In this document: positions 239 to 22,529 of the stretch, one piece after another
Layout: each line of letters opens with the position of its first letter
How positions within the stretch are numbered: the first letter of the stretch is position 1
Notes under the pieces: generated by a model
What the model was told of the DNA's origin: nothing
Databases searched by the model: none
What the model saw: the letters and a program-made list of their open reading frames with translations, nothing else
Source of the DNA: Planctomycetota bacterium
Lineage (GTDB): Bacteria; Planctomycetota; Brocadiia; Brocadiales; Brocadiaceae
Direction of reading: 5' to 3'
Assembly: GCA_023261445.1 (NCBI GenBank)
Contig: JAHFOX010000010.1
Span: 1-37,407, forward strand
DNA: 37,407 nt
Position numbers and translations under genes: made by a program

Positions 239-724
239 TCATGAACTGCCTATTATATCTTCTAATTTTTTCAAAAATTCCCGCTCAATAGTGCCATCTG
301 ATACAACTCTAGTCCATCGGTATGCCTGACTGCCGCCGGGAGCCTTCGTTTCCACTTGTGCATTTACGGAAACATAAGTCTTGTTTTGTTCGCCTGTTAC
401 TCTAATAATTAAACGGTAACGTTCTTGCCATTGTCCTTCCAAAAACAACCCCGTGGTCTTAGTCTTCGACCATCCCTTGCCCCATTTAGTTCTTAAAACC
501 CCATTTTCATGGTCTTTAACTTCAATTGGAATTCCTTCTGTCGCTTGAATTAAGGCATTCCAGACAGTTTCTATATCTTTGTCAAAGTAATCGGAAACAC
601 TTGTCATGTTTCTATGCCCACGGCTACCTGTAGCGCATCCCGTTAGAATGATGGTAAATAGGGCTATCGTTAACGACGTCATAATAGCAATATATCCAGC
701 ATACGATAATCCTTTTTTGTCCAT
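239..724 (-). CDS. BamC-like outer membrane lipoprotein
   Basis: A 161-residue lipoprotein. The N-terminus carries a hydrophobic signal ending in the lipobox LTGC (cysteine near residue 30), so the mature protein should be lipid-anchored. The body (about residues 45-155) reads like the helix-grip fold of BamC and similar DUF proteins: DIETVWNALIQA, then a strand-rich part with WGKGWSKTKTTG and WQERYRLIIRV. BamC is an accessory lipoprotein of the outer membrane beta-barrel assembly machine, but single-domain relatives occur outside that complex and I cannot tell which applies. The start has no clear ribosome binding site; a second ATG at residue 15 would still leave a usable signal peptide. 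It is followed at 145 by another secreted protein on the same strand. Confidence 0.6.
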   Translation of the reverse strand: MDKKGLSYAGYIAIMTSLTIALFTIILTGCATGSRGHRNMTSVSDYFDKDIETVWNALIQATEGIPIEVKDHENGVLRTKWGKGWSKTKTTGLFLEGQWQERYRLIIRVTGEQNKTYVSVNAQVETKAPGGSQAYRWTRVVSDGTIEREFLKKLEDIIGSS

Positions 725-887: not shown

Positions 888-1205
888 TTAACTCAAAGGT
901 ATTCGCAATCCTTTTTTCGTAAACTGATTCTGCGAATCCTTCATTTTTTGATATATAGACGACCAAGACCTTTTTGCATATACTATTGGAATTCCCTTGT
1001 TCTCAGCATGCTTCTTTATTTTATGCGCAAGATTATGGTTTACAAAGTCGTAAAGCATAATTATAAAGTCCATCGTTTCAGGAATTCCGTCGCGTATCTT
1101 CTGCCCACTCCTGCCAGTCAGATGCTTAATCTCATTAACCCCAATTTTATCAAGCTCCTTTGGAATACTACCCAAATGATCACCACCAACAATAAGTGCG
1201 GACAT
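888..1205 (-). CDS. DUF2325 family protein
   Basis: A 105-residue soluble protein that starts with the hallmark of DUF2325, SALIVGGDHLGSIPKEL: a Rossmann-like beta strand and glycine loop. It continues with a conserved middle (IPETMDFIIMLYDFVNHNLA) and the family's usual ending (GIPIVYAKRSWSSI). No biochemical role is established for this family to my knowledge. The start codon follows a strong AGGAGG site. It lies 73 bases after the EB_dh heme protein gene on the same strand, and I read it as the last gene of the cytochrome-porin operon. It has no cysteines or CxxCH, so it is not itself a cytochrome. A cytoplasmic regulatory or ligand-binding role in that operon would be a guess. Confidence 0.8.
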   Translation of the reverse strand: MSALIVGGDHLGSIPKELDKIGVNEIKHLTGRSGQKIRDGIPETMDFIIMLYDFVNHNLAHKIKKHAENKGIPIVYAKRSWSSIYQKMKDSQNQFTKKGLRIPLS

Positions 1206-1278
1206 TTTTTAGAATCCTCCTTCTGATTAAATAATAAAAGTTTGTTCGTATAAAGATGACAAACATAAAAGTAATTTG

Positions 1279-2250
1279 TTAATTTCCAATCCGTTCCAGC
1301 ACCATAGGATGCCATTGAACGGATATACTCTTTTGCCCGTTTCTGTCTTTTTGCCCACCATCCCATACCGCCATATTGAAATATGTTTTTCCGCCAGGAA
1401 CGAACTGTATATCATCATGGTCTTTTGTAATTAATGAACGATACATAATTACAGTCCATATCCCATCCTTATACTTACTACATCCATTCACGTCCTGATG
1501 GTCTTGTGTGGTAAGCGTGCCAAAACCTTCTGCGTTTAAATCCTCTACTGTCCTTCCTCTTTCTGGCTGAGAAAGCAGGTTATTGGCAGCTATCCCTCCC
1601 GACAAATGTTCTACACTGGTCATCAATTCCTGATAATTGTATGGGCTGTAAGGATTCAAATAAAAATCATCGTGCATATTCGGATATCGCTTCTGCATAT
1701 CTTCTAGCTCATCCTTAGCAAGCAAATCTGCCTCCCAGTCTGCCTTCCAATGCCAGATGTTTACGGGTTTTTCCCTGTCTCCCATCCTTGGGCTAAAATG
1801 TTCCGCTGGAGTTATATCCACTACACCTAAAGGAAACATTAAAGCCACAGCATCTCTAAACTCCTGAACTGCAATTGCTCTGGCATTCTTTGTTGGATCT
1901 TTCCATGAAATCTGGAAATAAATCATAATTCCATCATGAATCGCCTTTACCTCAGCACTATTGACAGAACCACCACCATTAGGAAACGCCTTGTCCTGTT
2001 TCTGGAGCGTAACCTTAACTGTCTTTGCATCTTTAAATGCGCCTCTTAATGATTCCACATCCATGCGATAAGGTTTGTCAATTTGTACATATTTGACGGT
2101 CAATACTTCTTTAGCAGCAGTAAATTCTTCTTCACTCATTCCCTTAACTCCTGGTGATATTTCTTCGGCTGCATGTAACGAAGCGCTAAGAAATACACAA
2201 CTCAGGAGGACTACACCATATCTTTTTAATACCATGTAATACCTTTTCAT
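1279..2250 (-). CDS. EB_dh family heme b-binding periplasmic protein (NxrC/EbdC-like)
   Basis: The protein has 323 residues when started at the ATG at 2250; the ORF track begins two codons earlier at a TTG. A signal peptide ends near SLHA-AEE. The body matches the ethylbenzene dehydrogenase gamma domain (PF09459), a beta-sandwich that holds one heme b. Supporting motifs are MIYFQISWKD, FRDAVALMFPLG and NIWHWKADWEADL. In characterised members (EbdC, NxrC) the heme is held by a Met and a Lys; the Met of VALMFP and the Lys of HWKADW are plausible candidates, but this is an inference. These proteins normally pass electrons from a molybdenum enzyme and its iron-sulfur subunit, neither of which is nearby. 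The start is only 14 bases after the stop of the cytochrome-porin gene, which implies translational coupling and a shared electron path. Confidence 0.85.
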   Translation of the reverse strand: MKRYYMVLKRYGVVLLSCVFLSASLHAAEEISPGVKGMSEEEFTAAKEVLTVKYVQIDKPYRMDVESLRGAFKDAKTVKVTLQKQDKAFPNGGGSVNSAEVKAIHDGIMIYFQISWKDPTKNARAIAVQEFRDAVALMFPLGVVDITPAEHFSPRMGDREKPVNIWHWKADWEADLLAKDELEDMQKRYPNMHDDFYLNPYSPYNYQELMTSVEHLSGGIAANNLLSQPERGRTVEDLNAEGFGTLTTQDHQDVNGCSKYKDGIWTVIMYRSLITKDHDDIQFVPGGKTYFNMAVWDGGQKDRNGQKSISVQWHPMVLERIGN

Positions 2251-2264
2251 AGTCAACAGTATTC

Positions 2265-3728
2265 TTAGAATCCTATTACCATACCCATCCTGTAGGAGTC
2301 GTCAAAAAAAGCTGACTTTGGGGCATTTCCGTCTGCAAAGGCTGCCCCAACAACAAATTTTATGTTGGCCCTGATGAGGACAGTAATGTCAGTACTGTAT
2401 CGGTTAAAGCTGTCGATGTCCCCGGCATCGTAAGACGGGTTCATGTTCTCAAAGCGGACTGCTGGGATAATCCATGGTAAGGCTACCCATCTGAGTTCGG
2501 CAGTATAGAGGTCGGCATCAAAGTTCTGACCGCTTTTATCCTCTATGGTTACATCACTGTCGGTTCTGTCTCTGAAGTAGGTAGCAGCTCCAAAGAGGTT
2601 AAAGTTCCACCAGTAAAAGTCGGCTTCCATGCCATATCGCCAGAAATGATTTCCACTGTTATGGAAACCTGTTCCACCAACCGGATCATTGAAGAATCCC
2701 GCATTTCCTCTGTAAAAGAAGCCAGAAAGAGTAAGGGATTTCTCCTGCCAGTTTTCAGTAGCCTTTTTGGACTCCTCTACCGTACCACCCCCTAACACTC
2801 CCATACCACCTATCTTATAGGAGATGCGGGCGTAGTAGTCCTTGCTGTTATTTACGTCAAAAGGATTATCAGCACTTTGAACATTGGTCTCAGTATTCTC
2901 CACAATTGTACTTCCAAAGTTTACCGTATTCTCTTCCCATACACCCAAAGCATCTTCTTGAGGCTCACCATTTACGATGCCAGCCGACCACAGGAGGCCT
3001 CCGTTCCCCTTTGGCCCATTCTTGCCGCCAAAGAATTCCACCCCATTCTGAAAAGGAAAGAAGGTAGTAAAATTGGCCGTGGGCAGTGTAGCCCAAGTAC
3101 TAAAGAGGTATGGGGTTGTACCAATAATGGATAGATTTTCAGATCTAGGTGTTGCACGGGGTTCAAATCTCCCGAATTCGACGTTAAATAGTCCTCTATT
3201 CTCAAAAAGTGTCGGACTATAGACCCCAAATAAACGTTCCACATGTGTCTCACTCCCTTTAGTTGACCCTTCGTTCTCAAATAATGGTGCAGCTCCAAAC
3301 CATGCAAAACTTTCTCCTAGCGTTCCTCCCGTAAGTAATTCTAACTCTCCAATACCATCAAAAGCTGTTTTACCGCTAGAGTTCTTTGGATTAACTGTAA
3401 ACTCTGATGTAACTAACAAGGCTATGGGAGGTAAGTGAGCTATCGTAGATGGCCATACAGTATTGGGGAAGACCTTTTTCCATGCCTCTCCACCCAGTGC
3501 CACAGGTGAGTCTTTTACGTATACCTCATCATCCTCTGGAAATCTGTAGCCATTGTCTTTAAAAGCCTTACCAAAGGGATTCAAAGCAGGGAAAGTTGCC
3601 CAGTGGCAAGTGGTGCATGACGTCTGATATTTCCTTGCAAAAATGGGTAAAGCATCAGCCCTTTTTGACATGTACAATGTTAACGCAAATATAAAACATA
3701 TGAATACAAACCTTAATGGGAAATTCAT
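2265..3728 (-). CDS. Cyc2-like fused monoheme cytochrome c-outer membrane porin
   Basis: 487 residues. A signal peptide (about 1-26) is followed at once by FARKYQTSCTTCHW, a single c-type heme site at residues 38-42. Next comes FPALNPFGKAFKDNGYRF, and then about 400 residues of alternating, aromatic-rich strands with glycine/asparagine loops ending in GMVIGF, as in outer membrane barrels. This order, the single heme and the total length match Cyc2, the fused cytochrome-porin that takes electrons from extracellular Fe(II) in iron oxidisers (about 485 residues in Acidithiobacillus). The FAR...CxxCH...P.L.PFG..FK..GY pattern is the Cyc2 signature as I know it. The actual donor or acceptor here is unknown. 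An AGGAGG site precedes the start, and a Fur-like box lies 21-35 bases upstream, so expression probably answers to iron or another metal. Confidence 0.8.
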   Translation of the reverse strand: MNFPLRFVFICFIFALTLYMSKRADALPIFARKYQTSCTTCHWATFPALNPFGKAFKDNGYRFPEDDEVYVKDSPVALGGEAWKKVFPNTVWPSTIAHLPPIALLVTSEFTVNPKNSSGKTAFDGIGELELLTGGTLGESFAWFGAAPLFENEGSTKGSETHVERLFGVYSPTLFENRGLFNVEFGRFEPRATPRSENLSIIGTTPYLFSTWATLPTANFTTFFPFQNGVEFFGGKNGPKGNGGLLWSAGIVNGEPQEDALGVWEENTVNFGSTIVENTETNVQSADNPFDVNNSKDYYARISYKIGGMGVLGGGTVEESKKATENWQEKSLTLSGFFYRGNAGFFNDPVGGTGFHNSGNHFWRYGMEADFYWWNFNLFGAATYFRDRTDSDVTIEDKSGQNFDADLYTAELRWVALPWIIPAVRFENMNPSYDAGDIDSFNRYSTDITVLIRANIKFVVGAAFADGNAPKSAFFDDSYRMGMVIGF

Positions 3729-3748
3729 ACAATCCTCCTATAATGCAC

Positions 3749-3763
3749 TAAGACTCATTCTCA
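3749..3763 (-). promoter_or_regulatory. Fur-like operator before the cytochrome-porin gene
   Basis: On the coding strand the site reads TGAGAATGAGTCTTA, close to the classical Fur box half-sites TGAGAAT/ATTCTCA (7-1-7 arrangement). It shares 12 identical bases (TGAGAATGAGTC) with the box before the porin at 5438 and sits at a similar distance from the start codon. A position over the promoter is consistent with metal-dependent repression. Confidence 0.6.
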
Positions 3764-3932
3764 ATATAAATCAAAAATAATAATTTCTATATTGTCAGGT
3801 AAATGCAAAACCGGCTTTTTCCGAATTGTTTTTCGCAAGGCATTTCTCCTGTATAAATAAGCCGAAGAATGACACCGCGCAAGGTATTGATACTTTTTTA
3901 TGTGTCCAACAAACTATAAACTTATAAACCTA

Positions 3933-4019: not shown

Positions 4020-5438
4020 CTAAAAATAAGTTGCGACAGAGAACAAGAATGCGTTATTGGCTATATCCTCCATATCTCTTTCTTCTATGTTAATCTGATA
4101 ATCTAATTTAAAAACAGTATCTTCGGTATAACGGTAGTTCAATCCAGGTGTAATGCGATTTCTTAGCCAATGAAGATCTTCGCCGTTTTCCAACCCGGCA
4201 GTTTCTACCTGATCCCATCTAAGAACGCCTGTAAAAGTTGAGTTTTCTGTAAAAAACTTTGGTGCTAAATTTCTTAATCCTGAAGGCATAAAGTGATAGC
4301 GGGCTTCTAAATAATATCCCCACATATCATCAGTGATACCAGCATCCTCGGCGAAATCATTTGTCTCTAAAAATGCATAAGCCCCTTCGCCTACAAATTC
4401 AAATGGGCCTTTTTGATAGGCAAAATCAAATGCTGGAATGGTCAGTTGGTTTTCATTATTCTCATCATATCTGCTTGTATAAGCAGAGCCGCCAAATTCT
4501 AATCCTATAAATGGACTAAATGCCACACGCCCCACAACGCCGGGGCTTTGGTTATAGTCATCAAATGGAAAATCATTTCTGGTCTCCCTTATTCCTTCTT
4601 CAACCTCAAAGTGTGACGTACCATCAGCATCTAAACCGTGAAATACGCCATTAGTAACATAAATCTCATAATCCAGCTTGCTCAATTCTGATGGATAAAG
4701 ACTTCCAAAAAAGCCCATTCCCATATCGCTAAGGGTAGTAGGAATAATATATTGATTTACCAATGGGCGTTCGGTCAAATCCTGTAATGGCGAATCGTGA
4801 ACAAGGTTAAATTTTCCTAACGGCGACAGAATGATTCCACCCCTCCAGTTAATCCAATCTGTAATTAAAAAATCAATTGTTGCAAATTCAAGTTTGACTT
4901 CTCCGTCACTTTCTTCAGATATGCCGCCATGCTCGAATTCTATTTCTGATGCAAGTTTTACACGGTCTGAGATATCGGAAAATATAAATGGTATAAACCT
5001 TGTCTGGTCAAAACCATTTTTACTATCCTCTTCCGATGCCCTGAACTGGAAATCCATATAACCACCGACATACGTATTCCTGCCAAATCTCCTCGCAAAT
5101 GGTTTTGTGTATTGATCGGAAAAGGCGGGGGCAAGTTTTTTGTCTTTAAATTCCGCGCTCTTCTTGGCATAGTAGAGGTCTCCTGATTCAACAGACGCTT
5201 TTCCCGCGTCGGTTTCTGTTTCTTTTTTCTGAACCTCTTCTTTTATTAATGCAATCTCCTTTTCTTTTTGAACATCCTTTTCAATCTGCTGCTTTAGTAA
5301 GTTTTTTAATTCAGTCAATTCCTTTTCAAGTGTTTCAACCTTCGTTTCCAACGACTTCGTTTCTGAAGACTGCGCAAAGGCATCAACAACAAAAGAAGAC
5401 ATAGCCAAAGATATTACAACTAAAATAAAATACCGCAT
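4020..5438 (-). CDS. Outer membrane porin with N-terminal coiled coil (OprP/OprO-like)
   Basis: 472 residues from the ATG at 5438. The ORF track begins 27 codons further upstream, but that extension runs through the Fur-like box, and only the inner ATG follows a G-rich ribosome binding site (AGGGGGGATG). A signal peptide (MRYFILVVISLAMSSFVVDA-FAQ) is followed by a coiled coil at about residues 28-75 (SLETKVETLEKELTELKNLL), as in trimeric porins. The rest is a strand-rich barrel with motifs such as YVGGYMDFQFRA and WINWRGGIILSPLGKFNL, ending in the terminal phenylalanine typical of barrel assembly (VATYF). It resembles phosphate-selective-type porins of the OprO/OprP superfamily, but the substrate cannot be read from sequence. 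The Fur-like box suggests induction when iron is scarce. Confidence 0.8.
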   Translation of the reverse strand: MRYFILVVISLAMSSFVVDAFAQSSETKSLETKVETLEKELTELKNLLKQQIEKDVQKEKEIALIKEEVQKKETETDAGKASVESGDLYYAKKSAEFKDKKLAPAFSDQYTKPFARRFGRNTYVGGYMDFQFRASEEDSKNGFDQTRFIPFIFSDISDRVKLASEIEFEHGGISEESDGEVKLEFATIDFLITDWINWRGGIILSPLGKFNLVHDSPLQDLTERPLVNQYIIPTTLSDMGMGFFGSLYPSELSKLDYEIYVTNGVFHGLDADGTSHFEVEEGIRETRNDFPFDDYNQSPGVVGRVAFSPFIGLEFGGSAYTSRYDENNENQLTIPAFDFAYQKGPFEFVGEGAYAFLETNDFAEDAGITDDMWGYYLEARYHFMPSGLRNLAPKFFTENSTFTGVLRWDQVETAGLENGEDLHWLRNRITPGLNYRYTEDTVFKLDYQINIEERDMEDIANNAFLFSVATYF

Positions 5439-5462: not shown

Positions 5463-5479
5463 AATGAGACTCATTCTCA
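5463..5479 (-). promoter_or_regulatory. Fur-like operator before the porin gene
   Basis: AATGAGACTCATTCTCA contains a perfect 6-1-6 palindrome (AATGAG-A-CTCATT) overlapped by a near-perfect 7-1-7 palindrome (TGAGACT-C-ATTCTCA, one mismatch). This overlapping dyad is typical of Fur family sites. It lies 27-41 bases before the chosen start codon and shares its core with the box at 3749. Confidence 0.65.
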
Positions 5480-5800: not shown

Positions 5801-6481
5801 TTATGAGTACTTGTGGCGCGATTTTGGAAATATTTTTATAAGGATGATACCCAAAACGAATCCTCCAATATGTGCCCACCATGCCACACCTCCACCGTGA
5901 GCGGAGGAAATTGATGCCGTGCCGCTGAAGAATTGAATGAGGAACCAAAACCCCAGCACAATAAGCGCCGGTAATTCAAGAAATTGCCAGACGATAAACA
6001 GAGGCACAAGAACTAATACACGCGCCCTTGGGAATGTAACCATATAAGCGCCGAGCACACCGGCAATTGCTCCGCTGGCGCCTACACAGGGGACTCCGGA
6101 TTGGCTATTGAGATAGACATGCACAACTGCTGATCCGATGCCACAGATTAGGTAGAACATTATGAATTTGAACCTTCCGAGTCTGTCTTCAATATTATCC
6201 CCAAAAATCCACAGATACCACATATTACCTATAAGATGAATAAACCCTCCATGAAGGAACATGAAGCTTAAAAAAGGGAAATAGGTATTTACGATGGTGG
6301 AATCAGGTATGTCAGAAGAATAAAATACTTTGATTGGAACGACGCCAAATTGAAAAAGAAATGAATCTAGTTTTCTGCCTAAAGAGACCTCAAGAAGAAA
6401 AACTAGGACATTTATAGCAATTATGGTAACGGTAACAAGCGGAAATGTGCCAGACGGATTTCGGTCTCGGATAGGTATCAT
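5801..6481 (-). CDS. Rhomboid family intramembrane serine protease
   Basis: A 226-residue polytopic membrane protein that cleaves substrates inside the lipid bilayer. The catalytic dyad is visible: Ser136 in GASGAIAGVLG and His204 in WWAHIGGFVLG. The L1 loop motif FLHGGFIHLIGNMWYLWIFG (about 76-95) and the DNIEDRLG segment are also characteristic. About six membrane helices can be counted, starting with VTIIAINVLVFLLEV. The N-terminal MIPIRDRNPSGTFPLVT is the usual cytoplasmic lead of the bacterial rhomboids that are common in planctomycetes and Chloroflexi. No strong ribosome binding site precedes the start. It lies 76 bases downstream of the amidase gene on the same strand; there is no clear functional link between the two. 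Confidence 0.92.
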   Translation of the reverse strand: MIPIRDRNPSGTFPLVTVTIIAINVLVFLLEVSLGRKLDSFLFQFGVVPIKVFYSSDIPDSTIVNTYFPFLSFMFLHGGFIHLIGNMWYLWIFGDNIEDRLGRFKFIMFYLICGIGSAVVHVYLNSQSGVPCVGASGAIAGVLGAYMVTFPRARVLVLVPLFIVWQFLELPALIVLGFWFLIQFFSGTASISSAHGGGVAWWAHIGGFVLGIILIKIFPKSRHKYS

Positions 6482-6557
6482 TTAATTTTTGTAACAAATC
6501 AACAGGAAACTAATGAGGCAGATTTGTTGATAAAATGAATCAAATTATTTTATTAAA

Positions 6558-7151
6558 TCAATATCGGACAGTATGAGCGAGTAATTTATAATATGGAAAA
6601 TTTCTTCCGGGGCATTCTGTTTCCCTGAAATGTCTATGCATTATAATATTTTCTGATAGAATATGGCATCGCTCCTGGAGATATTCTACTAACATTGAAA
6701 GTGAAGCCATCTGTGCTGCTGTTGGGTATGAATCGTTAAAATTTCCGACAAGACATATTCCTATGCCATAGTGATTATATTCTTGGACGCCTGCATGAGC
6801 GCCGTCTATCTGACTTACCCATCTATTGCCAATCTCAATCTGTCCATCGCCAGAGCCTTTTCCGTTTCCTATCACAAAGTGATAGCCTAGTCCATTCTCC
6901 CATCCCCGTTTTTCCCTGTGATATTTATCAAACTCAGCGGCACTGCCAGATTCTGAAGCACTGTGATGAATAACAATGTACTTCCAGTCACGTACGTAGT
7001 AACGATCCAATTGACTATATATGTAGGGTTCTGGTTTTTTTGGAGGTTTCATTATAGTTACAGGTTTGAAAGTGGGTGGGGCATAGCAACCACATAAATA
7101 AAAGACGGTAATAATACAGAGGAAAATATAACTTTTCCATCGAAGGTGCAT
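6558..7151 (-). CDS. N-acetylmuramoyl-L-alanine amidase lipoprotein (Amidase_2)
   Basis: 197 residues from the ATG at 7151, chosen over the ORF-track start at 7178 because it alone follows a GGAG site at good spacing. A signal with lipobox LCGC suggests a lipid-anchored, periplasmic enzyme. The catalytic domain is of the amidase_2/PGRP type, which cuts the amide bond between MurNAc and the stem peptide. Zinc ligands are expected in YIVIHHSAS (His), IIMHRHFRETECPG (His and Cys), and the domain also shows GLGYHFVIGNG and GIGICLVGNFN. All key residues are present, so it should be active. This supports the presence of peptidoglycan in the organism, in line with murI at 18.3 kb. Confidence 0.88.
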   Translation of the reverse strand: MHLRWKSYIFLCIITVFYLCGCYAPPTFKPVTIMKPPKKPEPYIYSQLDRYYVRDWKYIVIHHSASESGSAAEFDKYHREKRGWENGLGYHFVIGNGKGSGDGQIEIGNRWVSQIDGAHAGVQEYNHYGIGICLVGNFNDSYPTAAQMASLSMLVEYLQERCHILSENIIMHRHFRETECPGRNFPYYKLLAHTVRY

Positions 7152-7645
7152 AAGTAATCTCCAGTAGCAATTTAACACTTGAATGTATAACTGAGGGGGT
7201 CTTAATTATTTTGAGGAAGTATATCATAAGTGTATTTTTTGTCAAATAACAATTTTGTTTTATTCAGAATCAAGTTAAAATATCACTAAAGAAAAAAAGA
7301 AGGTGATATTGTTTATGTACGTTACGTAAAATTCTTAAGCTATGGATAAAATTGCCATTTTAATTTTTTGCTTGACATCTAACATTATGAATGGTTTATG
7401 TAAAAAACCAAACATTTTTTGATATGTTGAAGATAAGAAACACTTCTTTAACCCTATAGCAGACATTAAAAAAAGTTGTCGTTGTGAGGTATTAACCTGA
7501 AGCCGCTCGTTTTTCTGAAATGTTTGATAAGCACGGATTGCATTGTTCATTTCAATGTGTAATTGTTTTTGAATTAATGCGCCATCAATAACACTTTCTT
7601 CTGATGTTTAGTATGTTGAAATAACAAGGGAGCAATTGTACCGCT
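7152..7645. other. Spacer between divergent genes with one doubtful small ORF
   Basis: About 490 bases separate the divergently transcribed amidase and binding-protein genes. Promoters for both must lie here, but I cannot pick a convincing pair. The region is AT-rich. It contains an unexplained minus-strand frame (7335-7550, listed separately) that stays open upstream of its ATG to about 7610 without another good start codon. Confidence 0.6.
7335..7550 (-). CDS. Doubtful small protein or gene remnant
   Basis: A 71-residue frame starting MNNAIRAYQTFQKNERLQVN. The same frame continues upstream of the ATG for about 19 codons (GALIQKQLHIE just before it) without a stop, and that part also reads like protein, so the true N-terminus may be missing or use an unusual start. 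There is no ribosome binding site. The AYQ...VNTSQRQLFLM pattern faintly recalls the N-terminus of FliS, but the rest does not fit. It may be a small unknown protein or a decayed gene; coding status is uncertain. Confidence 0.25.
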   Translation of the reverse strand: MNNAIRAYQTFQKNERLQVNTSQRQLFLMSAIGLKKCFLSSTYQKMFGFLHKPFIMLDVKQKIKMAILSIA

Positions 7646-11712: not shown

Positions 11713-13965
11713 ATGGTAGAATGGATAAAAACCATGAAGCGTTTGTTTGTGTTCTTAATGTTCCAAAGCATATTACTCTTGAACATTATTCCCTTCCTTC
11801 CATCCACAACTTATGCAGAAGGCGCTGATACACCATCTACTCCAGACCAAAAAACAAGTCACTCTATTGAAACTACAACAAATAGCAGTGGAAACAATTC
11901 AAAGAGCATGGAATCTGCCATATCCGAAGAACTCTCTGCTGAAGCCATTTGGTTTGGCGCCGGCGAAGAAGTAACTATTGCCACAAGGCTCAAAACTCCA
12001 ATCGGCAAGGCGCCCAGCGTTGTGACCGTGATTACGGATGAAGAGATAAAGAATCTGGGTTATCGCACCTTGGTTGAAGTGCTGAGGATTGTGCCGGGTT
12101 TTGAGATTATGAAATTTGCCGATTTCGGGATGGAAAGCCCTTCTGTGAGGGGGCTGGCTACCGTAAACGGTGCAAACAGAATAAGGCTGATGCTAGATGG
12201 GCATTTTGTAAATAATCCTTTACGTGGCAGGGCTTTTAATGAATTTGATGATTTCCCTGTAGAAAATATAAAAAGGATTGAGATTATACGAGGACCTGGT
12301 TCTGCAATGTACGGAGAAAATGCTTTTTCAGCGGTTATCAATATCATTACCAAAGATGCAGGGGATATTGATGGCGTAAAGCTTACCAGCGGGTATGGAA
12401 GTTTTGATACGTACGAAGAAAACGTCTTGTTTGGAGAAACTAATGGAAAGGTTTCTATCTCAGGAATGGCGCACTACCGACAGACAAGCGGTTTTGATGG
12501 TATCATAGAAAGTGACAGCCAGACAAATATAGACAATGCCCTTTCTCCATTTGGAATTCCTGCCGCGTCTCAGGCGCCGGGGTCAGTGCATGACGGCAGG
12601 CAAGAATACGACGTGAACTTGAAGGTGGTTTATGAAAATTTATACTTTTTAGGATGGTACGGCAATAAGAATCAGGAACCTTTTGTTGGGCCACAATATG
12701 CTTTAGCAGATGGCTCTAATGTTGAAGATAACCATGTATTTGGCGAGGTTGGGTATAAAATGACGTTTGAGGAAAAACTTACCATAAAGCCCCGGATATA
12801 CTACGATCAAATTGACACTGACATTTTTATTAAATCTTTGCCGGAGGGTACCACTTTACCTCTGGATACCAATGGCGACGGTATAACAGATACGTTTAAT
12901 TATTATCCCGATGGATTCGTCGGTGATGGTATAGTAAGTGAAAAGATAGTTGGCACAGAAATTCCATTCGATTATAATTTGTTCGATGGGAATATACTTA
13001 CACTTGGATTTGAGTATCGTCTGATCAATCAAACAAACGTCCAGTTTTTAACCAACTTTGATCCAGTAACTATGGCACCGCTGCCTTCCACTCAGGATTT
13101 TTCAGACACATACCCTTTTTTACAAGAAGCCACCAGGAGAGTAGCGTCGGTTTATGTGCAGGATACGTGGGATATTACTGACTCATTAAATCTCACCATT
13201 GGGGCAAGACATGACCAATACAACGATTTTGGCGGTGCAACCAGTCCACGGTCCGGTTTATCCTGGGCGTTTATGGAAAACGCATCGCTAAAAGTGCTTT
13301 ACGGAGAAGCATTCAGGGCGCCCAGCTTTATAGAGATGTACACTACCAATCAACCCGCTGTACAGGGTAATCCCGATTTGCAGCCTGAGCTTATTAGAAC
13401 TTATGAACTTGGGCTAAGTTATAAATTTAATAAATACGTTACAAGCAGTGTTAATTATTTCATAAATGATATAAAAGACCTCATTGCCCTGCGTCCGTTG
13501 GAATCAGATACACGCACATCACGTTATGAAAATTTTGGAGATGCACATGTACAAGGCATAGAAATGGAGACCAAGATAGATATAAGCAAGGGGAACTATG
13601 TTTTTATGAATTATACATTCCAAAACCCGGAAGACGACAATGGAGATAATCTTCCATCTGTATCGAAACACAAGGGTAATTTTGGAGTGAATGTACAACC
13701 TTGTAAACATATTAACACCAACCTCAGCACTTTTTTTAGTGGCAGACGTTTCAGAGAGGAAGGTGATCCGCGAGAAGATATGCCATCTTACGCGTTGCTT
13801 AATCTTTCTGTTATTGGAAAAGAGTTCTTCAAGACAATGGAAGTACAGGGGACAGTGTATAATCTGCTTGATAAAGACTATAGCGACCCGGGTCCTGTTT
13901 CCTTATACGAAGATTTACCCCGTCCCGAAAGGACATTTTTTGTTGGATTGAGCTATAAGTTTTAG
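11713..13965 (+). CDS. TonB-dependent outer membrane receptor
   Basis: 750 residues. A signal peptide is present (LFVFLMFQSILLLN, cleavage near TYA-EGA); a second ATG at codon 8 is an equally good start. A Ser/Thr/Asn-rich linker leads to a TonB box-like EEVTIATR and the plug domain (about 90-215) with APSVVTVITDEEIKNLGYRT, VRGLATVNGANRIRLMLDGH and the IRGPGSAMYGENAFSAVINI signature. The barrel follows, with FRAPSFIEMYT and QVQGTVYNLLDKDY-type C-terminal strands, ending in FVGLSYKF. It resembles receptors of the BtuB/colicin I group that take up iron complexes or cobalamin; the ligand is unknown. An extracellular loop holds DTNGDGITD, which looks like a calcium site. The gene follows the kinase-cyclase operon on the same strand after 265 bases. 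Confidence 0.93.
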   Translation: MVEWIKTMKRLFVFLMFQSILLLNIIPFLPSTTYAEGADTPSTPDQKTSHSIETTTNSSGNNSKSMESAISEELSAEAIWFGAGEEVTIATRLKTPIGKAPSVVTVITDEEIKNLGYRTLVEVLRIVPGFEIMKFADFGMESPSVRGLATVNGANRIRLMLDGHFVNNPLRGRAFNEFDDFPVENIKRIEIIRGPGSAMYGENAFSAVINIITKDAGDIDGVKLTSGYGSFDTYEENVLFGETNGKVSISGMAHYRQTSGFDGIIESDSQTNIDNALSPFGIPAASQAPGSVHDGRQEYDVNLKVVYENLYFLGWYGNKNQEPFVGPQYALADGSNVEDNHVFGEVGYKMTFEEKLTIKPRIYYDQIDTDIFIKSLPEGTTLPLDTNGDGITDTFNYYPDGFVGDGIVSEKIVGTEIPFDYNLFDGNILTLGFEYRLINQTNVQFLTNFDPVTMAPLPSTQDFSDTYPFLQEATRRVASVYVQDTWDITDSLNLTIGARHDQYNDFGGATSPRSGLSWAFMENASLKVLYGEAFRAPSFIEMYTTNQPAVQGNPDLQPELIRTYELGLSYKFNKYVTSSVNYFINDIKDLIALRPLESDTRTSRYENFGDAHVQGIEMETKIDISKGNYVFMNYTFQNPEDDNGDNLPSVSKHKGNFGVNVQPCKHINTNLSTFFSGRRFREEGDPREDMPSYALLNLSVIGKEFFKTMEVQGTVYNLLDKDYSDPGPVSLYEDLPRPERTFFVGLSYKF

Positions 13966-19868: not shown

Positions 19869-21389
19869 ATGTTCATTAAAGTACGTACAGAATTTTTCAG
19901 CAAAAACCTGTTTTCCCTCCTCATTGCAGCGTCCCTCGTTATACATGGGGTTGTCATCTTTCTATCGCCGCAGGCAAACCAGATTATAAGTCTAAATTCG
20001 CTTCGAGAGCGTTTTATCCGCGAACCTGAAGAATATGCAGTTGCGTTGGAACTCGAAGATACCAGTACGCAAGCACAAAATGAGTCTTTAGAAAAAGAAC
20101 AAAATAAAGACGAGGTAAAGAAAGAAAAAGAACCCGAAAAAAAGAAGGAAAAATTATTTACAGACACTTCTGATAACAGGGAGGATGAAGAAGTAAAGGT
20201 TGATACAGATAAAATCGGCGAAAAGGGTGCTGTAGCGAAGGATAATTTTTCTAACGATAAGCAACCAGTGAACAATGAGCCACACGCCGAAGGCCGTTCG
20301 AAAGCGCCGCTTTTGGGTAAGGGACAGGTAACAGTTCCTGGCGATGGTCAGCAGCAACCACAAGAACAGCAAACCACGGCGCAGGCTTTTATTGCAGGGG
20401 ATAGCTCTGATAATAAAAATTCTCCACCCAAATATGCGAATCTGCCGCAGGGATTAGAAAAACAAGAGGATGCTATAAAACCTGTTCAAAAGCCACAACT
20501 GCAAACCCCTTTTGAAAGAAAGGAACAGGTGTTATCTGAAAAAAATGACGAAGAACATACAGAGGTAAAAACGGTCAAGCTGAACGAACCGGTAAAAACG
20601 GAAAATAATGAGCAAACTCCACAAAGGAAGCGTCTCAATATTGGGCGTGGTGTTGCACAAAAGGAAGAGGTGGAGACAATGTCTGAACGTGAAGGTATAC
20701 TGATTACAGATGAACAGAATGAAGTGGGTAAAAAAACAGAAATAAAGGAAGATTCATTGGCATCTTCAAAGGAACATGAAGCAGTAAAGGATAAGAATGA
20801 TGTAAAGAAAGAAGAAAATAATGAAGCAAAAGAAATGAAGGTTAAGCAGGAAACAGATGTGCTTAAGCCAGAAATACAACAGCCTCAATCAGAAATGGCT
20901 GGTTTTGAACCACAACGCAGACTTGAAAGAGGATTGAATGAGGAGGAGAGTCCCAGCAAGATTGAAAAGCCTAAGGTGTTTTTTAACGTCAATGCAAAGA
21001 CAGAAGGATCAAATAAAGACCCCGTGCTCTTTGAGGATACAATATCTAATGCGGCTATTTCGGGTGCGCCGTCTTTCAACGTGCAAAAACATGAATATGC
21101 CCCTTATTTCAAGCATATTCGTGACAGAATATCATTATATTGGTTTCTTGGATATGGTACCCGTGCTGAAATAAAGCTAGAAACTAAAGAGGATAAACCG
21201 ATTATTATAGAGTTTAAGGTCTTACCCGACGGCTCTATTGATGATGTTAAGGTTGTGGATGATGCAGGGAATTTTAATCTTGCCTCACGGCTTATTTCCT
21301 CTGTTGAAAACGCATCGCCATTAAATCCTTTTCCACCAAATATCAAGGAACCGTCAATTGAAGTAAGATTTAATTTCTATTTTTTCTAA
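19869..21389 (+). CDS. TonB/TolA-like energy-transducing protein with long charged spacer
   Basis: 506 residues. A single N-terminal membrane helix (about 14-33, FSLLIAASLVIHGVVIFL) is followed by roughly 370 residues rich in Lys, Glu, Gln and Pro (for example KKEKEPEKKKEK), a flexible span that can cross the periplasm. The C-terminal 95 residues form a TonB/TolA-type domain with SLYWFLGYGTRAEIKLE, IEFKVLPDGSIDDVKVV and NPFPPNI, ending in an aromatic tail. The next two genes are ExbB/TolQ and ExbD/TolR, so this is the output arm of a proton-driven motor. Whether it serves TonB receptors such as that at 11.7 kb or a Tol-type envelope function is undecided. Typical TonB is about 240 residues, so the spacer is unusually long. 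Confidence 0.88.
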   Translation: MFIKVRTEFFSKNLFSLLIAASLVIHGVVIFLSPQANQIISLNSLRERFIREPEEYAVALELEDTSTQAQNESLEKEQNKDEVKKEKEPEKKKEKLFTDTSDNREDEEVKVDTDKIGEKGAVAKDNFSNDKQPVNNEPHAEGRSKAPLLGKGQVTVPGDGQQQPQEQQTTAQAFIAGDSSDNKNSPPKYANLPQGLEKQEDAIKPVQKPQLQTPFERKEQVLSEKNDEEHTEVKTVKLNEPVKTENNEQTPQRKRLNIGRGVAQKEEVETMSEREGILITDEQNEVGKKTEIKEDSLASSKEHEAVKDKNDVKKEENNEAKEMKVKQETDVLKPEIQQPQSEMAGFEPQRRLERGLNEEESPSKIEKPKVFFNVNAKTEGSNKDPVLFEDTISNAAISGAPSFNVQKHEYAPYFKHIRDRISLYWFLGYGTRAEIKLETKEDKPIIIEFKVLPDGSIDDVKVVDDAGNFNLASRLISSVENASPLNPFPPNIKEPSIEVRFNFYFF

Positions 21390-21431
21390 TATTTTAATAA
21401 GCATATTTAACAAACAGGAGGGAATAAAACT

Positions 21432-22049
21432 TTGGAATGGCTGATAGGCGGCGGTCCTATAATGATACCGTTGTTAATTTGTTCTGTCCTAGCCTTGGCA
21501 GTTATTATTGAAAGGGCAATTAATCTGCGCAGAAATAAAATTCTGAAACCAGAGATTATACAAACCATTGAGGCAATACGAAGCCATGACGATATACCTT
21601 TTGCAATCTCGAAATGTGAAGTAATATCAGGTCCATTTTCAAATTTGCTGCGCCGCATACTCACAAATAATCATCTTACGCGAGAGGAAAAGTTTATTGA
21701 TATACAGGCAGCCGGACGGCAGGAAACAAAGATGCTTGAAAAGAGGCTCTTGGTGCTTGAAGTAATCACCGCAGTGGCGCCTTTGTTGGGATTGCTTGGA
21801 ACGGTATTAGGGCTGGAAAGTATTTTTGGGATCATATCTGAACTTGGTCTGGGACAGGCAAGGGCATTTTCAGGCGGGCTTGCTGAAGCCATTCGTACTA
21901 CAGTTTTCGGGCTTTTTATTGCAATTCCGTCTTTAGTGGCGTATAGCTATTTTGATAAAAAAGTAGATACATTTATTCTTGAAATGGAAGAATATTCTAT
22001 GCACCTCCTCAACAAACTATATCCGGCTAAAGGATTTGACAAAAAATAA
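21432..22049 (+). CDS. exbB: ExbB/TolQ/MotA family proton channel protein
   Basis: 205 residues from a TTG start, which is supported by a strong AGGAGGG site nine bases upstream. Three membrane segments fit the family: about 6-24 (PIMIPLLICSVLALAVII), about 110-130 (VITAVAPLLGLLGTVLGLES) and about 150-175 (TTVFGLFIAIPSLVAYSYF). The conserved GLLGTV turn and the Thr-containing third helix line the proton path. With ExbD it forms the inner membrane motor that energises TonB. It sits between the TonB-like and ExbD genes on the same strand, 42 bases after the former. Confidence 0.92.
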   Translation: MEWLIGGGPIMIPLLICSVLALAVIIERAINLRRNKILKPEIIQTIEAIRSHDDIPFAISKCEVISGPFSNLLRRILTNNHLTREEKFIDIQAAGRQETKMLEKRLLVLEVITAVAPLLGLLGTVLGLESIFGIISELGLGQARAFSGGLAEAIRTTVFGLFIAIPSLVAYSYFDKKVDTFILEMEEYSMHLLNKLYPAKGFDKK

Positions 22050-22115
22050 ATCTTCTAGGCAAGCCCCTTGCTTTACTACAATATAGTTCTAAAGGAGTTT
22101 TTTAATTTATAAACC

Positions 22116-22529
22116 ATGAAATTCCGAGAAAAACGCATTACAAAATCTATCATAAATCTTACACCAATGGTAGATATGCTGTTTTTAATACTTTTGTTTT
22201 TTTTGGTTACATCCAGTTTTATAGAACAGCCAAATATCAAACTAGAACTTCCCTCAACCAAATATGCATCCACAAGCAAACTTGAAGAGCGGGTATTAAC
22301 AATTTCTGCGGATGGAAAGCTATTCTTCCAGAACGAACCTGTCGAAAGAAAGGCCCTTATCCCTGTATTGAAAAACGCCTTCTTAAAACAGGACGACAAA
22401 ACCCTTATTATGCGCGCGGACAAGAATGTGCCTTACGGTGTTATCATTGATGTCATGGATGCGGCTAAAGGAGCAGGTTTAAAGAAGATTGTTGCGCCGA
22501 CTATTTTTGAACCTGAGAAAAAACCTTAG
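22116..22529 (+). CDS. exbD: ExbD/TolR family biopolymer transport protein
   Basis: 137 residues. A short cytoplasmic N-terminus leads into one membrane helix (about 20-42) that contains the essential proton-carrying aspartate in INLTPMVDMLFLILLFFLV. A periplasmic domain follows (LELPSTKYAS, LTISADGKLFFQN, LIMRADKNVPYGVIIDVMDA). Family length and motifs are complete. An AAAGGAG sequence lies 18 bases upstream, further than usual, so translation may be modest relative to exbB. It closes the TonB-ExbB-ExbD operon. Confidence 0.93.
   Translation: MKFREKRITKSIINLTPMVDMLFLILLFFLVTSSFIEQPNIKLELPSTKYASTSKLEERVLTISADGKLFFQNEPVERKALIPVLKNAFLKQDDKTLIMRADKNVPYGVIIDVMDAAKGAGLKKIVAPTIFEPEKKP

Follow-up and report, generated by a model that had tools for sequence, protein, structure and literature searches.

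An operon of minus-strand genes lies at the start of the window, by which we mean the whole 37,407-nucleotide stretch analyzed here, from an anammox bacterium of the order Brocadiales (Table 1). The earlier note had described three of these genes, for a cytochrome-porin, an EB_dh protein and a DUF2325 protein, and all three were found where it had placed them, including the 14 bases between the stop codon of the porin gene and the EB_dh ATG at 2250. The operon is longer than this, with a second porin gene upstream and, downstream, a lipoprotein gene and an FMN-binding/ApbE flavoprotein gene, which is the last of the operon. Contig C6 overlaps the start of the window by 120 identical bases, and the joined FMN_bind/ApbE reading frame is intact; flavoproteins of this type have been linked to iron assimilation in other organisms (PMC8238504). 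The second porin family, of which 13 members were aligned, corresponds to no Pfam family, and searches with Pfam, NCBIfam and PDB profiles assigned no family to either porin. Rhomboid and amidase-like genes occur near the cytochrome-porin gene in two families of the order (window 5801-7178; L068:10991-12345).

Table 1. Positions of the operon genes and predicted operators in the window.
Feature	Position	Strand	Remarks
FMN_bind/ApbE flavoprotein gene, first 48 codons	1..145, start 145	minus	runs off contig
Lipoprotein	239..724	minus	lipobox LTGC; conserved beside DUF2325 and ApbE genes
DUF2325 protein, 105 aa	888..1205	minus	PF10087, E=5e-17
NXR-C paralogue (EB_dh, heme b type)	1279..2250 from its ATG	minus	PF09459, Sec-type signal, Met and Lys ligands kept
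Cyc2-type monoheme cytochrome-porin, 487 aa	2265..3728	minus	signal peptide, ALPIFARKYQTSCTTCHWATFPAL, predicted barrel
Palindromic predicted operator TGAGAATGAGTCTTA	3749..3763	minus	20 nt before cytochrome-porin ATG
Second predicted outer-membrane porin, family F8	4020..5438, ATG 5438	minus	coiled-coil N-terminus, C-terminal beta-signal ..VATYF
Palindromic predicted operator TGAGAATGAGTCTCA	5465..5479	minus	just before second porin gene; same sequence there in other Brocadiaceae

The N-terminus of the cytochrome-porin, ALPIFARKYQTSCTTCHWATFPALNPFG, agrees with the Cyc2 signature in every letter and, read as ALPIFARKYQTSC-TTCH-WATFPAL-NPFG, matches the published spacings (PMC8406198). That signature, AXPXFAR[Q/K][T/Y] - CXXCH - PXL, was called unique to Cyc2 by Keffer et al. 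(PMC8406198); in ALPIFARKYQTSCTTCHWATFPAL its first element precedes CXXCH and PXL lies 4 residues past it. Cyc2 proteins are expected to have at least 365 residues, a signal peptide and a single CXXCH, and the window protein has 487 residues, one CXXCH and a hydrophobic N-terminus. The match is not a chance one, since the signature is fixed or almost fixed across a family of 30 Brocadiales proteins. The earlier note's assignment of the protein to the Cyc2 type was right as to this signature. The strict pattern fits 21 of the 30 members, and most of the others fall short by a single spacer residue or letter; one member has a truncated contig and hence no CxxCH, and the divergent pair L053 and L054 departs further. 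When the family HMM was compared with four Cyc2-type proteins, all proteobacterial and the only use to which plasmid matches were put, it matched the 60-residue heme segment alone (E 1e-12 to 1e-16), as expected given that the barrel is poorly conserved in the Cyc2 family. An outer-membrane barrel, which in Cyc2 has 16 strands and is fused to the heme segment, is predicted only indirectly, from a conserved C-terminal beta-signal in the family (..Y.MG..IGF, with a C-terminal F in most members), the signal peptide and the absence of any other strongly hydrophobic helix. An AlphaFold2 model built from six sequences reached a pLDDT of 27, too low to bear on the fold, a scan of viral contigs yielded no additional sequences for structure prediction, and by a rough score of strand periodicity the cytochrome-porin could not be told from NXR-C and ranked no better than a soluble control.

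The EB_dh protein matches PF09459 at E=8e-37 (127.9 bits against a gathering score of 33.3) and Kuenenia NXR-C (PDB 7b04) at E=1e-139, with residues 3-323 of 325 aligned; the latter match marks the window as anammox DNA. The heme b ligands of Kuenenia NXR-C are Met155 and Lys305 (PMC8387239), and both are conserved in the porin-linked proteins, only the Met being readable in the truncated copy of G005. The description of the partner as a heme b EB_dh protein was therefore right as to family, but it is not a generic member; it is a duplicate of the NXR-C of the anammox nitrite oxidoreductase. A second NXR-C copy, 79% identical, is encoded in the same genome next to nxrB (contig C64). A tree of 23 proteins placed the three porin-linked EB_dh proteins in a clade of their own (support 100/100), none of them adjacent to nxrA or nxrB, whereas the remaining proteins had nxrB adjacent wherever the flank could be inspected; fixed differences between the two groups fell mostly in one stretch, Ks179-219. 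The nxrB-adjacent second copy, the retained ligands and the separate clade point to an NXR-C duplicate that moved into the porin operon and stayed intact there. That the EB_dh protein of the window is the housekeeping NXR-C was ruled out by the copy beside nxrB and by the tree. Its location is presumably periplasmic.

Gene neighborhoods in the Brocadiales

Relatives of the cytochrome-porin were found in 26 of 59 Brocadiales genomes, mostly fragmented MAGs in which the absence of a gene or regulator is weak evidence. Planctomycetes bacterium GWA2_39_15 (G001; L059/L079) has the full run of second porin, cytochrome-porin, EB_dh, DUF2325, lipoprotein and FMN_bind/ApbE genes, and REEB58 (G005) has the same order up to its contig end. 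The three-gene order set out in the earlier note is to this extent conserved, but most relatives across the order are followed instead by genes for a cupredoxin-like protein, Rieske protein, cytochrome b, cytochrome b C-terminal domain and octaheme cytochrome, so the EB_dh pairing is a rarer, lineage-limited Brocadiaceae version of a cytochrome-porin that is more widespread among anammox bacteria. In G001 both arrangements occur, each once. Gene context did not strictly track the porin phylogeny, and the EB_dh-linked porins were rejected as a single clade; the EB_dh-linked copy of G001 grouped with Rieske-linked copies, which indicates past switching of context or gene conversion. A different family of the order has two genomes (L045, L075) in which a cytochrome-porin, second porin, DUF2325 and lipoprotein share one neighborhood, and the run in L075 also includes ApbE and an EB_dh protein that is longer and diheme.

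The operon is undergoing loss in the related genomes G006 and G013, where the second porin is retained alongside decayed remnants. The cytochrome-porin has decayed in both (L064:6613-8337 and L065:7912-8346, respectively), and in L064 the EB_dh gene has decayed too and a DDE transposase lies nearby. Two other loci were seen. In nzgw514 (G014, L061) three genes for multiheme cytochromes (6, 10 and 5 CxxCH) are followed directly, on the same strand, by a cytochrome-porin gene, with no EB_dh gene adjacent. A contig binned as Dehalococcoidia (L080, JACVQG010000047.1) carries a 71% identical anammox porin with a Rieske/cytochrome b operon and is probably misbinned Brocadiaceae DNA.

A palindrome common to the operon and feoB

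A 15-nt palindrome, TGAGACTNAGTCTCA, precedes both the cytochrome-porin and the second porin gene, and G001 has an equivalent site 15-16 nt before its cytochrome-porin copy. Allowing at most two mismatches, it occurs at four places in the 2.08-Mb genome of the window, namely before feoB, the second porin, the cytochrome-porin and one other, as against five matches for a reversed control pattern, so that here the positions of the sites are informative and their count is not. Over 57 genomes, with at most one mismatch, there were 122 palindrome sites as against 15 for the control pattern. With 13 or more of its 15 positions matching, the palindrome lies upstream of feoB in 26 of 30 Brocadiaceae, and at 16 of 26 sampled loci feoB or the gene for the second porin, DUF2325, lipoprotein or cytochrome-porin starts just past it, compared with 8% for random positions within the same loci. 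In genomes in which the other genes are not together with the cytochrome-porin, they have palindromes of their own: the second porin in six further genomes, the DUF2325 homologue, directly, in six other genomes, and the lipoprotein homologue in G003 (L149). The palindrome is found before several Rieske-linked porin genes (L073, L074, L080) and is lacking before others (L060, L062, L063).

Because feoB and the genes of the operon have this palindrome in common, the module is a predicted member of the feoB (iron) regulon. The earlier note had left the choice between metal oxidation and extracellular electron transfer open; the palindrome, which that note had not picked up, ties the operon to iron status. 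A reading of it as a Fur box was given up after a negative search for the matching regulators: the 91% complete genome gave no match to PF01475, for which control genomes did give matches, and none for the DtxR family. Conservation of the feoB operator across the family alongside this result implies that there is an iron-type regulator. Elsewhere in the window, no close match to the palindrome precedes the TonB/ExbB/ExbD-like genes recognized by eye at 19869-22529 or the TonB-dependent receptor gene at 11713-13962 (Pfam). The same palindrome was seen before HMA_2-domain operons in G006, G013 and G012 (L064, L065 and L143), those of G006 and G013 including a heavy-metal P-type ATPase and CbiX, and these are possibly ferrosome-like iron genes of anammox bacteria.

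Discussion

Nitrate-dependent Fe(II) oxidation and the export of electrons from the cell are both reported for anammox bacteria, but in the openly accessible part of the literature we found neither a dedicated outer-membrane iron protein of these bacteria nor a report of Cyc2 in the Brocadiales, Scalindua included; one paper does place Cyc2 in Bythopirellula, a planctomycete outside this order (PMC10732223). The candidate is now specific, a protein with the Cyc2 signature together with a partner that arose by duplication of nitrite oxidoreductase subunit C, and it comes with a defined, iron-linked regulon with a recognizable operator, consisting of feoB, two porins, DUF2325, the lipoprotein and the flavoprotein. 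The unexplained iron chemistry of anammox bacteria thereby becomes testable gene by gene.

Our tentative preference, held at somewhat less than even confidence, is that the operon codes for an iron-regulated conduit taking electrons through the outer membrane, with an assimilatory, outward job. The Cyc2-type protein would place one heme c in an outer-membrane barrel and would exchange electrons with two periplasmic carriers that the operon also encodes, namely the heme b protein derived from NXR-C and the FMN protein, whose flavin would be attached by an ApbE domain of its own; a direct path between the porin and the EB_dh protein is possible. The operator would be repressed by iron. When iron is scarce, electrons would flow outward to reduce Fe(III) at the surface, and the resulting Fe(II) would enter via a porin, perhaps the second one, for import by FeoB. 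It is co-regulation with feoB that suggests a role in iron supply and hence this outward flow. The potential of the Fe(III)/Fe(II) couple goes up when Fe(II) is very low, which makes the assimilatory reading easier. Cyc2 matches in metagenomes need not signal an iron-based energy metabolism, the window gene being wired to control by iron status.

Against the assimilatory reading, every Cyc2 protein tested in the literature covered oxidizes Fe(II) and none reduces Fe(III) for uptake, and the negative search of the 91% complete genome for proteins of the Fur and DtxR families also weighs against it. A possible but doubtful alternative is that electrons flow inward for energy, from Cyc2-type oxidation of dissolved Fe(II) at the surface through the NXR-C-like heme b to the reduction of nitrate or nitrite, i.e. 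the nitrate-dependent Fe(II) oxidation of anammox bacteria. Fe(II) oxidation is proven for the Cyc2 proteins tested biochemically (PMC8406198). The Met/Lys heme b of the NXR-C/EBDH type is a high-potential one (PMC8387239) and would more favorably accept electrons from a Cyc2-type heme, which lies at +208 mV in Mariprofundus (PMC8406198), than reduce it, making the direction from Cyc2 to heme b the downhill one. Porin relatives in other lineages, some of them without the palindrome, precede operons for Rieske/cytochrome b and octaheme cytochromes; such a respiratory setting counts for the inward reading and against the assimilatory one. However, an energy pathway would not need an operator in common with feoB, the gene is patchy in the order and decayed in two Brocadiaceae, and electrons from the EB_dh protein would have to cross at least one further membrane to reach the anammoxosome. 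It is the regulon evidence that puts the assimilatory reading somewhat ahead.

An outward flow might also be respiratory, with Fe(III) or Mn(IV) minerals or electrodes as extracellular acceptors and iron-linked control because the minerals are the acceptor. This we consider unlikely. Anammox dependent on extracellular electron transfer has been reported, with an unspecified porin-cytochrome complex (PMC7188810), and Rieske/cytochrome b and multiheme cytochrome genes do lie beside several homologues, but the window operon itself is without a multiheme cytochrome, a single heme is poorly suited to contacting solids, and Cyc2 was argued by Keffer et al. to act on dissolved iron (PMC8406198). With still lower probability, the duplicated NXR-C might have been recruited as the redox partner of a Cyc2-type oxidase in the outer membrane and still be able to dock to NXR-AB or its partners. 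Extracellular Fe(II) would then supply the electrons that drive nitrate to nitrite and feed anammox; were this true, a dedicated wire would join iron to the nitrite/nitrate enzyme. Least probable of all is that the paralogue serves mainly as an alternative gamma subunit of nitrite oxidoreductase under iron limitation and adjoins the porin by coincidence, for although it is 79% identical to the true NXR-C and keeps the heme ligands, nxrB is missing from beside all three porin-linked copies, the nxrB-adjacent copies make up the rest of the tree, the fixed differences are mostly confined to one stretch, and the porin-EB_dh order is retained in three genomes.

The operon resembles several known systems in part. 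With Cyc2, the fused cytochrome-porin of Fe(II) oxidizers (Keffer 2021, McAllister 2020), the window protein shares a signal peptide, one CxxCH within AXPXFAR[QK][TY]...PXL, a length of about 490 residues and a C-terminal beta-signal, and its family has HMM similarity to Cyc2-type proteins of Burkholderiales and Methylocystis. It differs in that only the heme segment is similar, it belongs to an anammox bacterium, any iron oxidation by it is putative, its partners are a heme b protein of the NXR-C type and a flavoprotein where Cyc2 has Cyc1 or a cupredoxin, and the operator is one that it has in common with feoB. The EB_dh protein shares PF09459, Met and Lys heme ligands and a Sec-type signal with NXR-C (PDB 7b04) and the gamma subunit of EBDH (2ivf), but unlike NXR-C it is encoded away from nxrA and nxrB, belongs to a separate clade and stands behind a cytochrome-porin gene in an iron-regulon operon. 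As in the FMN_bind/ApbE flavinylation clusters (Meheust 2021), an operon for redox proteins outside the cytosol encodes a fusion of FMN_bind and ApbE that carries an export signal, but a PepSY/MsrQ-type membrane electron-transfer core was not noted and the pairing is with an outer-membrane cytochrome. The Mtr and Pcc porin-cytochrome conduits have in common with the window operon the function proposed for it, an electron path through the outer membrane, whereas they use separate multiheme cytochromes where the window protein would have a single heme fused to its predicted barrel.
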